Part shown: positions 23,118 through 40,326 of the stretch, one piece after another
Layout of the letters: every line of letters starts with the position of its first letter
Position numbering within the stretch: position 1 is the stretch's first letter
From: a virus
Reading direction: 5' to 3' (one strand)
Length of the DNA stretch: 45,104 bases
Virus record (IMG/VR): IMGVR_UViG_3300037171_000044
Span: 1 to 45,104 of that record
Notes under the pieces: generated by a model
Databases searched by the model: none
Told to the model about the DNA's origin: nothing
Seen by the model: the letters and a program-made list of their open reading frames with translations, nothing else
Position numbers and translations under genes: made by a program

Positions 23118-23293
23118 TATGCACCTCTCAATTCAAATTGTGCCCGGAGCGTTGCCAATTCTGCCAATTCACAATCCGTGAAGGGTATGTCTCCGGGCAT
23201 CTTTCGACGGTGTTCAAGAACTGTTCGACGCCGATCTTCGATATTGTACAATTCCCGCTTGAGCATCTTCTCAATGAGGGCCTGTTCGAGCAT
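23117..23293 (-). CDS. Small charged helical protein
   Basis: A 58-residue protein translated from ATG at 23293 with GGAGG-type sequence (AGGAAAGGTA) just upstream. Its start overlaps the stop of the diphosphohydrolase fusion (TAATG) and its stop overlaps the metallophosphoesterase ATG, so three genes are coupled in a row. It is almost wholly helical and charged (LIEKMLKRELYNIEDRRRTV), and the end is Glu/Leu rich. It may be an accessory subunit of a neighbour. I do not recognise it. Confidence 0.7.
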   Translation of the reverse strand: MLEQALIEKMLKRELYNIEDRRRTVLEHRRKMPGDIPFTDCELAELATLRAQFELRGA

Positions 23294-24303
23294 TACCTTT
23301 CCTCCTGTGCTACTTGGGCCAGAGCCACGACGCGAAGGATCGCCTGATCGAAATTCGGTTCCAACGTGCAGAAGTTCCGGCAGAATAGATGCTCGTTAAA
23401 GACACGCGGACTGGCGCAGAGGATCACGGGCTTCTTGAAACCGATTGCCGCGGCACCCATTTCCATGAGAGAGCCGATGGACTGACGGAATGGTTCGTAG
23501 GGGAAATGGGCGAGAACGCAATCGGATACTTTGATGTCCATTTCGTCCCTGCTGGCGATCTCCGGGGCGGCAAGCTGGCCCTTGTAGCTCAGACCTTGAT
23601 TACTGACATCACTTCGAGTCTTGCCACGGAGGGGATTCAAAGTTCGTATACCATACCGGGCGAAGTTGGCGGTCGCTATCTCCCGCCATTCGTAGTCGAT
23701 CTCCTGACCAGTGATCGGCCCGCAGAGATAGACGGTGAAGGGCTTGCCGGTCAGGGGCATCGGTCCCTGTGTACCTTCGGGCACCCGGATCAAATGAATT
23801 AAGCCGCCAGGCCCGTATTGCACGGGGCCAGGAACCATCTTGATCGGTGCCCCGGCCGGGATATCTTCGGCGGCGAAAGCGCCAGTGCCATTGAAGGCGT
23901 CAAGGTCGGCCTTGATCTTGGCTTCTACCGACGCAGAACGGGCGACGTACTTGGGCATGTCGTCCAGCGAGGCAGGCAGGCGACCAGCCTTGATCTCCTC
24001 CTCGTAGTGGAGGATGAATCCGGCGTTAGTGCGGATCGCGGCCATGTGATCCTCGTCGGCTTTGCCCAACTTATAGGCTTCAAGATGCCGGGCAAGGGAT
24101 GCCACACATTCAGATATGGGCATACCTGCTTCCCAGTTCCGGGGCCGGTACTTCTTGGCACCAAGGGCTAACCACGCGCCTTCACGGGTGTTAGCATGAG
24201 GGGAAATCAAGTCGGGTCGGGGCTTGAAGTCGCCCCGGTCTCTGACGGTCCCTGTTTCAAACTGTCGTCGTTCGCCACTGTCTTGCATGGTTGGTTCTTC
24301 CAT
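23293..24303 (-). CDS. Fusion: dATP/dGTP diphosphohydrolase-type domain plus nucleoside deoxyribosyltransferase-like domain
   Basis: A 336-residue protein. Residues ~14-105 match the N-terminal domain family of dATP/dGTP diphosphohydrolases (FETGTVRDRGDFKPRPDLI, ALGAKKYRPRNWEAG, SLARHLEAYK, DHMAAIRTNAGFILHYEEE), with His and Glu residues spaced as in MazG-like all-alpha NTP hydrolases. Residues ~190-310 form a Rossmann-like domain of the nucleoside 2-deoxyribosyltransferase type (VYLCGPITG, RTLNP, SRDEMDIKVSDCVLAHF, GSLMEMGAA with a candidate catalytic Glu). It would act on deoxynucleotides, adjusting pools or a modified base. No PurZ-like gene is in the window, so diaminopurine synthesis is not supported. 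Confidence 0.75.
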   Translation of the reverse strand: MEEPTMQDSGERRQFETGTVRDRGDFKPRPDLISPHANTREGAWLALGAKKYRPRNWEAGMPISECVASLARHLEAYKLGKADEDHMAAIRTNAGFILHYEEEIKAGRLPASLDDMPKYVARSASVEAKIKADLDAFNGTGAFAAEDIPAGAPIKMVPGPVQYGPGGLIHLIRVPEGTQGPMPLTGKPFTVYLCGPITGQEIDYEWREIATANFARYGIRTLNPLRGKTRSDVSNQGLSYKGQLAAPEIASRDEMDIKVSDCVLAHFPYEPFRQSIGSLMEMGAAAIGFKKPVILCASPRVFNEHLFCRNFCTLEPNFDQAILRVVALAQVAQEER

Positions 24304-24388: not shown

Positions 24389-26635
24389 TTATCGTCTCCC
24401 CACCAGGTAGCGGTCCACCGCGTCCTGGGTCAGCTTCACACCTTGGAAACATCGGGCTTGTTTGCCCTGAAATATCAAGCGATCTGCAATGATGCCAGGA
24501 TGGGCCATGCAGAACCGCTGGCTGAACTTCGTGATTGTACCCGCGAATATGCCCTGATCCTTGCACCAGCGAGCGTAAGCATCGTAGATTGTGGACACCG
24601 GCACCTGGGCTTCGGACCCAAACTCACAATATTCATCGGCGAACTCACTCACCGGCGAAGACTGTTTACGGAATTCTTCGATCACTGACTGTGAAGAAGC
24701 CGGTGCAGTGAAGCCTCCCCGCCGTAGTCTAAGCAATCCCTGGAGTGCCCAGACTGCGATGCCTGGCGCTTCCTTGACGATCCTATCTTTGAGCCGCGTA
24801 TCTTCTCGGCCGTAGAAGGATTCGCCGAAATGCAGGAGAAGCAGGCGTCGATCAAGACTGCGTTCGTGGTCCGGTAGATCGGGCATCGAGTTGACGGAGA
24901 TTGTAAACCGACACGACAGTTTGTGGTCCGAGAGGAACTCTTTGTTTTTGCGATTGATACCGACTCCGTCCCGGCCTGAGATTTCTTTGAGGACTTGGAG
25001 GGCTTTCGAGGGGTCGCCCCGCTTGGTAATGTGAGCGTCAGGCAGGATAGCTGCGAGTTTTCCGAGGAGAGGCTGTAAGCCGAAATCCCCGACGAGCGTA
25101 TCAAAACTTGTAGAAGCAACTTGAGGACTCCCGAGCATGGCCCGTAGAGCTTCAAGGACGGTTCCCTTTCCAGCCCCTGGCCGACCGATAAAGAACATGA
25201 GTTTTTCTTGGCTTGTGTCTGCAACCAAGTTGTATCCAAACCACTCTTGGAGAAGGGCAATTTTTTCTGGGTCATTCGGGAATACCTCTTGTAATAACTT
25301 CGTCCAGGTCGGGCACGTCGCCGCCGCGTGATATTCATAGGGCATCGCTGTCATTGAAAAGAACTTCGGTGTCACCGGCTCTGGCGTCAAGTCCGGCAGC
25401 GTCAACCAACCATTCTTGAACACCACCATATCTTGAGGCTGGGCGTGTTCATCGTCGTCCAACCAGCAGGGAGCATCTTTGTAGATCGGGCAGGTCATCG
25501 TCAGGGCGTCGATGATATCACTTACCTCGTGGGAGTTAGCCTCGAACGGCGTGATCGTGACTTCGCCTTTACTGTTGAACTTCTTAACCGTCTTGCCTTT
25601 GAGGAAGGCGTAGAGATCACCACGTAGGAAAGTTTGCCCATCCACCCGGTTATACTTTGCCCCGTCGAATCGGTAATAGTTACCCGCGTATTGACGGAGT
25701 ATAGGGAGGCCAGCGAGGTAATGGCGTTCCCTAAGCCAACGATCTGCGATATCAAGAGGGGCGGCGGATTCAAGAAGGTCAGATGCACTTGTTGTGACAC
25801 CCGCCATCTTGATCGCTTCTTCAAGGCCCGTTCGGTCAAGGCCAGATCGCACCCAGGCCCGGAGGTCTTTGATCCCGTCCGGGGGCAGGAGCTTAACGAC
25901 GCTCTTGCATTTAGATTTGAGGGTTTCATACGTCTTCTCCATGCCGAGGCGACCAGTCCCGGCGTCATTCTCACCGATGACTACGACATCCCGACCGACT
26001 AGAAGATCGGCGAGGAAGGACATGCCTCCCGTCGCGGAGGGCTTTCCGACTCCTCCAAACCCCAGATCGTGAGCGGCGGCTGTGTCGGACTGCCCCTCAA
26101 CGACAAGCACCGGCAGAGTGGAGGAGGCGAGAATTCCACCCCCAACTTTCGACACGCGACCAGATGACTTACGTATATGCAGATAGCCTGCGTCACCCAT
26201 TGGTCGAACTGCCCCTTCCGGGGTCCGTCCACATAGCACCGCTTGAGGATCGCTCGGGCACTCAGATGAGACCATACACCAATGGGTGCGTCCGCAGATT
26301 GGACAGGGATAGTCCTCCGAACATCGCGTCCAGTTGTGCGAGCCGGGGATGTACTTTTCCGAGTCCGGGTTGTAGTCTTGCGAGATCGCATACGTGAGTC
26401 CTCTCTTGCCGCCTTTGATGTCGTATTTCTTACCATTCGGATAGCGTCGGACTAGTCCAATGACCCGACCTTCGGCGTCCCGCTCGGGGAATACCCAGCA
26501 CTCGTCAAGCGGAATCCAGCCGATCCCGATGGAATACAGGGCATCAGATGACACACCCAAGTCTTTCGCAAGGTGGGCGACCATCGCGGGCCACGCATTC
26601 TTCTGATAACTTATAAGGTCTTCGGTGAAGTCCAT
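24389..26635 (-). CDS. Primase-helicase (TOPRIM plus SF3/D5-type helicase)
   Basis: A 748-residue protein. The start at 26635 is chosen because an upstream start at 26674 would run through the tRNA-like element. Domains in order: N-terminal region with a cysteine cluster (CPICGRTHWC and later cysteines, about 111-136), TOPRIM (VLVVEGQSD about 176-184, VVIGENDAGTG about 218-228), then a D5-type helicase with Walker A IGRPGAGKGT (about 483-492). The conserved TISVNSMPDLPDHERSLDRR lies near 575-595, and a winged-helix C-terminus follows. It would prime and unwind DNA at the fork with the family A polymerase at 32239-34257. Confidence 0.9.
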   Translation of the reverse strand: MDFTEDLISYQKNAWPAMVAHLAKDLGVSSDALYSIGIGWIPLDECWVFPERDAEGRVIGLVRRYPNGKKYDIKGGKRGLTYAISQDYNPDSEKYIPGSHNWTRCSEDYPCPICGRTHWCMVSSECPSDPQAVLCGRTPEGAVRPMGDAGYLHIRKSSGRVSKVGGGILASSTLPVLVVEGQSDTAAAHDLGFGGVGKPSATGGMSFLADLLVGRDVVVIGENDAGTGRLGMEKTYETLKSKCKSVVKLLPPDGIKDLRAWVRSGLDRTGLEEAIKMAGVTTSASDLLESAAPLDIADRWLRERHYLAGLPILRQYAGNYYRFDGAKYNRVDGQTFLRGDLYAFLKGKTVKKFNSKGEVTITPFEANSHEVSDIIDALTMTCPIYKDAPCWLDDDEHAQPQDMVVFKNGWLTLPDLTPEPVTPKFFSMTAMPYEYHAAATCPTWTKLLQEVFPNDPEKIALLQEWFGYNLVADTSQEKLMFFIGRPGAGKGTVLEALRAMLGSPQVASTSFDTLVGDFGLQPLLGKLAAILPDAHITKRGDPSKALQVLKEISGRDGVGINRKNKEFLSDHKLSCRFTISVNSMPDLPDHERSLDRRLLLLHFGESFYGREDTRLKDRIVKEAPGIAVWALQGLLRLRRGGFTAPASSQSVIEEFRKQSSPVSEFADEYCEFGSEAQVPVSTIYDAYARWCKDQGIFAGTITKFSQRFCMAHPGIIADRLIFQGKQARCFQGVKLTQDAVDRYLVGRR

Positions 26636-26647
26636 CGTATTCTCTAC

Positions 26648-26719
26648 GCTGCCATGCAGGACTCGAACCTGCATCTAGTTCCGAACGGGAACCATCCTAC
26701 CAATTGGACGAATGGCAGC
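26648..26719 (-). tRNA. tRNA-like element with abnormal anticodon arm (isotype undetermined)
   Basis: On the minus strand the acceptor CTGCCAT pairs with ATGGCAG (8 bp if the outer G-C is counted). The D stem GTCC/GGAT encloses AATTGGTA, and the T arm GCAGG-TTCGAGT-CCTGC is canonical. The anticodon arm is odd: GGTTC/GAACT leaves loop CCGTTCG, giving GTT (Asn) but with C at position 33 and no base 26. The alternative GTTCC/GGAAC leaves only a 5-nt loop. No CCA is encoded. It lies in the gap between the HTH and primase-helicase genes. It may be a decayed tRNA or a tRNA mimic. Confidence 0.6.
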
Positions 26720-27920: not shown

Positions 27921-28238
27921 CTAATCGCGAATAATTCCGATGATATCGGTGATATCGCACAAGGCACACGGCGTGCCATCATCCAGCACTACGGGATAGG
28001 GTGTCACCCGCGATCCTTGTTGGGTCTGTTGCTGGTGTTGGGCCAGCATCACGCGATCTCCTGGCTTGACATCCGGGGTGATCTGCTTGCCGCCGTCCCA
28101 CCGGCCGGGGCCGACAGCCCGGACGACGCCGGTAATAAAGATGTCGCCGAAGCCATCAGGCAAGACCAGCCCGCCCGGTGTCTTCTTGTTCTTGGGGTCC
28201 AGTACGACGGTGACGAACGCATGAATCGGTTGGAACAC
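27921..28238 (-). CDS. Co-chaperonin GroES homologue (Cpn10)
   Basis: A 105-residue protein, close to the ~95-105 usual length. It has the GroES mobile-loop motif (KKTPGGLVLPDGFG, about 18-31, with LVL in place of the IVL tripeptide that docks on GroEL). The core strand VRAVGPGRWDGGK (about 39-51), the VKPGDRVML turn (57-65) and the C-terminal ITDIIGIIRD follow. It would cap host GroEL with an altered cage, as T4 gp31 does for its capsid protein. No GroEL gene is present. It lies between the Sak4-like ATPase and ssDNA-binding genes in the early operon. Confidence 0.85.
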   Translation of the reverse strand: MFQPIHAFVTVVLDPKNKKTPGGLVLPDGFGDIFITGVVRAVGPGRWDGGKQITPDVKPGDRVMLAQHQQQTQQGSRVTPYPVVLDDGTPCALCDITDIIGIIRD

Positions 28239-36348: not shown

Positions 36349-36903
36349 TTATCCGAGGTCTTTGGCGTTGCCGAAGACCCTGGCGTTGCCGGAGACCCCG
36401 GCGTTGCCGAAGACCTTGGCGTTGCCGAAGACCTCGGCGTTGCCGGAGACCCCGGCGTTGCCGAAGACCCTGGCGTTGCCGGAGACCCCGGCGTTGCCGA
36501 AGACCTTGGCGTTGCCGAAGACCTCGGCGTTGCCGAAGACCCTGGCGTTGCCGGAGACCCCGGCGTTGCCGAAGACCTCGGCGTTGTCGAAGACCCTGGC
36601 GTTGCCGGAGACCTCGGCGTTGCCGAAGACCCTGGCGTTGCCGGAGACCCCGGCGTTGCCGAAGACCTCGGCGTTGTCGAAGACCCTGGCGTTGCCGAAG
36701 ACCTCGGCGTTGCCGGAGACCCTGGCGTTGCCGAAGACCTTGGCGAAAAAACCCACAAAAACAGTTTTGTCCACTATCGCGGTGTCAGCTACTAAACCAC
36801 CACCGTTACAATGACGATGGTATTTAACGCCGTCAATTGTAATGGCAGTGCCCTTGACTATTATTCCCATATCTTCGGGCCATCTTGCATACTTGATTTT
36901 CAT
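36349..36903 (-). CDS. Hexapeptide-repeat left-handed beta-helix protein
   Basis: A 184-residue protein with GGAGGTGCAAGC before ATG. Residues 1-54 are a non-repetitive lead (GIIVKGTAITIDGVKYHRH). From there 21 consecutive hexads of the form V[FS][GD]NAx fill residues ~55-180, the signature of left-handed beta-helices used by acyltransferases and YdcK-like proteins. Eighteen bases per repeat with near-identical codons suggest recent tandem expansion. There is no acyltransferase catalytic histidine visible. A structural or binding role is the safe reading. Function unknown. Confidence 0.8.
   Translation of the reverse strand: MKIKYARWPEDMGIIVKGTAITIDGVKYHRHCNGGGLVADTAIVDKTVFVGFFAKVFGNARVSGNAEVFGNARVFDNAEVFGNAGVSGNARVFGNAEVSGNARVFDNAEVFGNAGVSGNARVFGNAEVFGNAKVFGNAGVSGNARVFGNAGVSGNAEVFGNAKVFGNAGVSGNARVFGNAKDLG
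36361..36738 (-). repeat. 21 tandem 18-bp repeats
   Basis: Array of 21 copies of an 18-bp unit inside the beta-helix gene, differing mainly at the codons for residues 2, 3 and 6 of each hexad. It is long enough for recombination-driven copy-number change. It also leaves long open frames on the opposite strand that are shadows. Confidence 0.9.
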
Positions 36904-39174: not shown

Positions 39175-39456
39175 TTACAAAACCGGCGGAAGCAAATTGG
39201 GTTTGGCCCCATTGGGTTTGGCCCGCTTGCCCTGGCACTCCGCCGTTAAGGTCTCCAATTGGGCTTTGAGCTTTGGACCCAACACAGGATCATCGTAGTA
39301 TTGATCGTAAAGCTCTGTAAGCCGATTGATTTCTTTGCGATTGTCAAGATACTTGTGCCAGCACCGCTTGCAATAGGCTTGGCTTCCGTAATCCCGACGA
39401 TGAATGGTTTGGCCGCACTTAGGGCACTCGCGATATTCTGTGAATTCTTTAGCCAT
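39175..39456 (-). CDS. Zinc-ribbon protein
   Basis: A 93-residue protein with GGAG before ATG, first gene after the promoter at 39479-39507. CPKCGQTIHRRDYG and YCKRCWHK form a zinc ribbon (about residues 11-33). A charged helical segment follows (NRKEINRLTELYDQYYDD) and a Lys/Pro-rich tail. It probably binds nucleic acid. As an early first gene next to the GGGTAA cluster it is a candidate regulator or origin-binding protein (inference). Confidence 0.65.
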   Translation of the reverse strand: MAKEFTEYRECPKCGQTIHRRDYGSQAYCKRCWHKYLDNRKEINRLTELYDQYYDDPVLGPKLKAQLETLTAECQGKRAKPNGAKPNLLPPVL

Positions 39457-39478: not shown

Positions 39479-39507
39479 AATGTAGCATATTACTGTAAGG
39501 CTGTCAA
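39479..39507 (-). promoter_or_regulatory. Sigma70 promoter for the zinc-ribbon gene
   Basis: TTGACA (39507-39502) and TACATT (39484-39479), 17 bp apart, with TGC before the -10 (extended -10). The first GGGTAA motif begins one base beyond the -35. Confidence 0.75.
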
Positions 39508-39863
39508 GGGTAAACCTTACGGGTAAGGAAAATAACATGGGGTAAGGTCGAATGAGCAAACCCCTTGAAACAAGCTATTTACTGTTATTATCTCTGTTAT
39601 CTATTCTAATAAAGGAGTAGGACTATAGAGAAGGCATTACCCCCTTACGGGTAATACTTATTCTACGGACGGAGACAGCAAATTGGGGGGGGGTAATAGT
39701 GATAATATCGGGTAAAGTAGGGGCAAAAGTGCCAAATATGGGGGGTTTTTGCATAAATGAGTATTACCCTAATAAGGGGGGGTAATACCGCTTTTTGGGC
39801 TTACCGTAATATTAGGGTAATACAGGCTGCACAAAAACTGCGCAACTGCACAAAGATTGTGCA
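39508..39863. other. Non-coding region with GGGTAA cluster (candidate origin or regulatory array)
   Basis: No gene is visible between 39457 and 40011. GGGTAA or its complement occurs ten times: 39508, 39521, 39540, 39637 (reverse), 39649, 39691, 39710, 39764 (reverse), 39780 and 39815. The region also has G-runs (nine G at 39685-39693, six at 39740-39745, seven at 39776-39782), AT-rich stretches, two CTGCACAAA copies (39827, 39846) and a dyad TGCACAA-AGA-TTGTGCA (39847-39863). Clustered short repeats beside AT-rich DNA fit an iteron-type origin or a multi-site operator. Confidence 0.6.
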
Positions 39864-39910
39864 ACTAGGTCGGTTTGACGCCCGTTTGACCGGTGTCCCC
39901 CGCTCGCGAG

Positions 39911-39954
39911 CATAAAATAAAACCCCCGACATGCTTCTTACACCATGTCGGGGG
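39911..39954 (-). terminator. Rho-independent terminator (leftward)
   Basis: 11-bp stem CCCCCGACATG/CATGTCGGGGG (39923-39933 with 39944-39954) and a 10-nt loop. On the minus strand it is followed by TTTTATTTTATG. It lies 58 bases past the stop of the gene at 40012-40326 and insulates the repeat region from that transcript. Confidence 0.88.
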
Positions 39955-40011: not shown

Positions 40012-40326
40012 TTACGGGGTAACGTATTCGACGACGCCATCTATCTCCAGATATACGCATGTCTGAAATAGTTCACGGGCGATTTGCTTGGCAAGGTTGT
40101 GCATATCTGATTCGACAAGCGTAGGGAATGTTGCATGTGGCCTATCCATTGCGGCGATATCGAACACCGTCACGGGTTCCACGATCAATTGGCCTTGATC
40201 GTCCTTCCACCCGCCGACAGCCTGCGTGGCCGTGAACCCTCCAGCAATGTCTGCGATAAGTGAACCGTATGCAACTATCGGGGAAGTATTCCTGTTATAA
40301 TTTGGTACGATCAATCGAATCTTCAT
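40012..40326 (-). CDS. Hypothetical phage protein, first leftward gene
   Basis: A 104-residue protein with AAGGAG 6 nt before ATG. Sequence includes AGGFTATQAVGGWKDDQG, ESDMHNLAKQIARELFQ and VYLEIDGVVEYV, a pattern common in small phage and plasmid proteins of unknown function. It forms a single-gene transcription unit between its own promoter (40361-40388) and a strong terminator, so it may be a highly expressed early protein. Confidence 0.65.
   Translation of the reverse strand: MKIRLIVPNYNRNTSPIVAYGSLIADIAGGFTATQAVGGWKDDQGQLIVEPVTVFDIAAMDRPHATFPTLVESDMHNLAKQIARELFQTCVYLEIDGVVEYVTP

Follow-up and report, generated by a model that had tools for sequence, protein, structure and literature searches.

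Positions 39508–39820 of the window, the 45,104-bp phage record from IMG/VR that we analyzed over its full length, very probably serve as the origin of replication for a phage of about 45 kb with a circular map. This reading is drawn from a cluster of short repeats, their two-set layout, conservation, and spacing, a nearby minimum of GC skew, an initiator of the right family, and published precedents. The repeats are likely to be iterons, which are probably read by the winged helix of the phage's primase-helicase, Rep. Counting against an origin, the skew signal is confounded, the array is distant from rep, and some of the relatives' arrays are weak or not significant (L006, L059, and L066).

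The ends of the contig (1–255 and 44771–45025), which both lie inside the terminase gene, overlap imperfectly with 239 of 255 bp identical (94%), and the map therefore closes; the mismatches reflect strain variation or two variants assembled together. In the near-twin genome G002, the terminase gene, an HNH gene, and the portal gene run uninterrupted across the window's join. A DNA-level search against named phages gave no match, and a protein search against them gave only matches below 60% identity. Relatives were gathered via the terminase, yielding 80 viral loci and four contigs from genome bins; terminase identity to the window is 47–79% for the lineages L023, L025, L011/L009, L007, L029, L070, L066, L040, and L136. 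Related phage contigs occur in both Planctomycetota and Pseudomonadota bins, which makes the bins mixed as evidence for a host.

Layout and conservation of the repeat array

Ten exact copies of GGGTAA, or TTACCC on the opposite strand, lie within 39508–39820, all of them non-coding, and the stretch that holds them is gene-free and flanked by leftward genes at 39175–39456 and 40012–40326. When the 555-bp intergenic region was dinucleotide-shuffled 2000 times, GGGTAA appeared on average 1.0 times and at most 5 times, and no 6-mer whatever exceeded 7 copies, compared to the 10 observed. These counts bear out the ten motifs in ~310 bp of non-coding DNA that had been noticed in an earlier, sequence-only reading. 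Enrichment over the whole window is modest (28 versus 20), so the real signal is the clustering. The genome has five GGGTAATA octamers, and every one falls inside this region. A P4-like second cis region was dropped as a candidate because the genome has no second GGGTAA cluster elsewhere.

The sites form two sets of three and seven. The left set (39508–39545, plus strand) has GGGTAA at 39508, 39521, and 39540, and the right set (39637–39820) has sites at 39637 (minus strand), 39649, 39691, 39710, 39764 (minus strand), 39780, and 39815, with the fuller consensus GGGTAATA (GGGTAAtA). Between them lies a 91-bp gap (39546–39636), the proposed melting element, with an AT content of 64%, compared to 52% for the remainder of the region and 45% genome-wide. 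The array is nearly identical in the near-twins L003 and L004: the gap is identical except at its right edge, the second and third left-set sites are retained, and the first reads AGAGTAA. Where the window has GTGATAA, between 39691 and 39710, L003 carries an additional site.

The same array architecture recurs at the same place, approximately 3–5 kb before the terminase gene, in relatives found in IMG/VR and in genome bins, with a motif that differs from lineage to lineage. The nearest lineage, L023, has ten copies of GGTAACA and is about one base off the window's motif (GGGTAACA versus GGGTAATA). The others use CAAGACA (L025), CTAGACA (L011/L009), GGTTAGA (L007), GTTAGAA (L029), TAGGGACA (L070), GGAACA (L136), and TAGAACA (L139). 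The array of L040 has few chance equals in shuffles, that of L066 is weaker, and those of L006 and L059 do not stand out clearly from shuffles; a search of G028 and G025 gave no convincing array. Position and layout are conserved, and the motif sequence turns over among lineages.

We derived layout statistics from nine arrays, counting near-twins once. In all nine, an internal gap of 91–138 bp (mean 114, s.d. 15) separates two sets of sites. The gap is AT-richer than the remainder in eight of the nine, by 9 points on average, with no gain in L139 and one of two points in L025. Of 26 pairs of adjacent same-strand sites, 12 are spaced 9–11 bp, versus 2.2 expected from random placement, and none of 5000 random placements matches this bias. 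The window's own array is looser, with steps of 13, 19, 42, 19, and 35 bp, and L003 has steps of 9 and 10 bp. A spacing of about one helical turn suggests that proteins bind next to each other along the same face of the DNA. Each lineage's motif was picked as the most clustered word in its region, which makes the site counts a selected quantity; no such selection acted on the statistics for layout, gap, and spacing. The iteron-like origin proposed in the sequence-only reading thus gains support from the array, its place, its two-set layout, and the one-turn spacing in relatives; as to conservation, these features hold (the spacing approximately), while the motif sequence does not. In three relatives, (CA)n or (TC)n microsatellites occur in or beside the inter-set gap: L029 (6165–6190), L006 (828–850), and L025 (3367–3413), possibly from slippage where the DNA opens repeatedly.

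Other elements of the region were considered and set aside. The earlier reading had pointed to G-runs able to form quadruplexes and to a TGCACAA dyad (39828–39865). A canonical four-run G-quadruplex is absent from the window's region and from the lineages with other motifs, and is present only in the near-twin G002; a G-quadruplex origin was dropped because the window lacks the canonical form and the motifs of the other lineages have no G-runs. The dyad is rearranged even in L003 and L004, where the repeats are kept, and was likewise dropped as part of the origin. Both features are incidental. A T7-like promoter in the AT-rich gap (GACTATAGAGA, resembling CACTATAGGGAGA) was rejected since we saw no phage RNA polymerase in the set of proteins predicted for the window.

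The cumulative GC-skew minimum lies 42–2162 bp from the cluster in all ten genomes, with a combined P of 3e-8 versus uniform placement. It is sharpest in G030, G031, G029, and G023, and lies 42–600 bp from the cluster in most relatives with strong skew; the window's own minimum is weak (range 242), at a distance of 1.4 kb. The sequence-only reading had asked for a skew switch near the cluster; the minimum does lie close by, but it coincides with divergent transcription, so skew is not independent proof of an origin. The minimum is compatible with an origin and tied to gene orientation.

A P4-family primase-helicase as candidate initiator

The proposed initiator is encoded by rep (24389–26674, minus strand), which specifies a 761-residue primase–SF3 helicase. 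Rep passes the profile TIGR01613 ("phage/plasmid primase, P4 family") with 176.8 bits against a cut-off of 108.7, and its closest solved structure is the SaPI5 primase-helicase 7ola (profile 2e-28, fold 4.4e-18, target TM 0.68–0.74). The AlphaFold2 model has a mean pLDDT of 82.5. Its C-terminus, at about residues 674–749 (24428–24655, minus strand), is modeled as strand-helix-helix-strand-strand, a winged helix that matches the RFX and Pox_D5 families and is the proposed iteron reader. A tRNA-Asn (GTT) gene at 26647–26719 (minus strand) overlaps the start of the annotated rep reading frame, so the true start of rep may be slightly downstream. At 23293–24303 (minus strand) lies a fusion of dATP/dGTP diphosphohydrolase-like and nucleoside deoxyribosyltransferase-like domains, a possible sign of modified nucleotides.

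The winged helix is the most divergent domain of Rep. Where the motif changes, it is 52–58% identical, compared to 83–87% for the helicase domain; between the window and G006 or G021 the two figures are 55–58% and 85–87%, and between the window and G002, which share a motif, the winged helix is 100% identical. The winged helices of G006 and G021, whose motifs are similar, are 52% identical to each other, versus 55–58% for either against the window. Since these two are not specially alike despite their similar motifs, and the pairs are too few for a test, the co-variation is only suggestive of a winged helix that changes together with its site.

We consider it unlikely that the region is an origin with a different reader, such as the zinc-ribbon protein or a host factor, and that the primase-helicase is recruited later. 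Such a reader would fit the 13 kb between the array and rep and the loose co-variation of winged helix and motif. It would also fit the zinc-ribbon gene (39175–39456, minus strand), which is the first gene of the window's leftward operon, adjoins the array, and encodes a protein that is variable among relatives (34–43% identity). However, tblastn found no zinc-ribbon gene beside the arrays of L025, L011, and L023, and we dropped this protein as a general iteron reader. Host factors would not be expected to switch motif so fast. A Rep relative, by comparison, is encoded in every near-complete genome; the replication genes common to all those compared are Rep, a single-strand-binding candidate, an AAA protein, a nuclease, and PolA, and among their products only Rep has a recognized DNA-binding winged helix.

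With Rep as the reader, we infer the following course of initiation. Copies of Rep would bind the GGGTAAtA iterons through their C-terminal winged helices and assemble on both sets flanking the AT-rich gap. After melting the gap, Rep would load as SF3 helicase rings, unwinding the duplex and priming synthesis, and the phage's own family-A polymerase would probably extend the primers in both directions, producing bidirectional forks. Binding at the left set, which adjoins the promoter of the leftward operon, probably also controls that promoter and throttles rep expression by feedback.

Promoter, terminator, and neighboring genes

The first iteron of the window adjoins a leftward, sigma-70-like promoter (39479–39507, minus strand) with the sequence TTGACA-17-TACATT and an extended −10 element; it matches the consensus at 10 of 12 positions. 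This promoter would drive the leftward operon, where the replication genes are located. On the other side of the array, a hairpin with a T-run (39918–39950, minus strand) ends a leftward 104-residue gene and separates that gene from the array, in agreement with the strong terminator reported from sequence alone. The terminator is kept in L003 and L004, and comparable hairpins, read by eye, occur at the matching place in L006, L023, L027, and L029. The 104-residue gene itself (40012–40326, minus strand; phrog_3543) adjoins the array, and its product has a predicted fold like that of a phage SAM lyase (6zm9, E 6.4e-5, query TM 0.69), by which it may be an early-expressed, anti-restriction SAM-degrading enzyme. 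Elsewhere in the window, two further minus-strand genes encode a GroES-like co-chaperonin (27921–28238; Cpn10 E 1.3e-11) and a protein of six-residue repeats (VFGNAR...) of the YdcK β-solenoid family (36349–36903).

The proximity of the left set to the promoter, the motif copies that L007 and L029 have inside their best promoter at the same place, and the general suitability of short, repeated, lineage-specific sites as repressor operators would all agree with a multi-site operator, at which a phage regulator represses or activates the leftward early promoter while replication starts elsewhere. As the sole function of the region, we regard this as quite improbable. The sites extend 300 bp upstream of the promoter and are split into two sets by an AT-rich gap whose length varies little; no helix-turn-helix regulator was recognized among the window proteins scanned; the rightward late promoter has no array; and the neighboring zinc-ribbon gene was not found beside the three arrays named above. 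The operator that the sequence-only reading had allowed for may thus persist as a second role of the left set, but the reach and the two-set layout disfavor it as the only one. Chance, or a low-complexity by-product of G-runs, would suit the modest whole-window count and the several sites that lie within G-runs, but is refuted, to the point of being negligible, by shuffles that never reach the observed count, by the layout and spacing statistics, and by relatives whose arrays at the same place use motifs free of G-runs.

Relation to known origins

The closest parallel to the proposed origin is found in the phage-inducible chromosomal islands (PICIs), including the SaPIs. Two sets of iterons invariably flank an AT-rich region in the origins of PICIs, and Pri-Rep together with the origin replicates a plasmid (PMC6092414). 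As here, the iterons are short and element-specific; the AT-rich region between them is a melting region, the role we propose for the window's gap, and the initiator is a primase-helicase, as Rep would be, the SaPI5 Pri-Rep being the best profile and structural match to Rep. The PICI/SaPI origin lies immediately 3′ of rep, whereas the window has no GGGTAA near the 3′ end of rep and its array is 13 kb off, in the early control region; and those elements are satellites, whereas this is a tailed phage of full size that encodes PolA itself.

P4 alpha shares with Rep a zinc/primase-like N-terminus, an SF3 helicase, and a C-terminal winged helix, through which it binds its origin repeats (PMC4234260). 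As in the window, the P4 repeats are distant from the initiator gene. P4 has a second cis region, in contrast to the single array found here, and depends on host polymerase, whereas this phage has its own PolA. We take the GGGTAA motif to be unrelated to the origin motif of P4. The lambda origin with its O protein and the iteron plasmids likewise have iterons beside an AT-rich melting element and a nearby promoter that controls the initiator. Unlike in those systems, the sites here occupy both strands and both sides of the AT-rich gap, and the initiator is a primase-helicase unrelated to either lambda O or plasmid RepA.

In 2018, the PICI origin plan was described as shared with no other known replicon (PMC6092414), and our search of the open-access literature found no report of it in other phages. 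We offer as a tentative and still doubtful proposal that a family of tailed phages uses this supposedly satellite-only plan, detached from rep, and that each lineage has rewritten both its iteron code and the winged helix of Rep; such phages may be where satellites acquired their replicon, and by switching its code a phage may be protected from satellites or rival phages that would use its replication protein. If true, the presence of a PICI-type plan in phages of full size that encode a DNA polymerase of their own would locate its source, or its spread, among ordinary phages. The array gives an uncultivated phage family a testable origin. The family's lineages would also supply initiators and iterons that vary naturally as matched pairs, and comparing them could reveal the recognition code of P4/SaPI-type winged helices.
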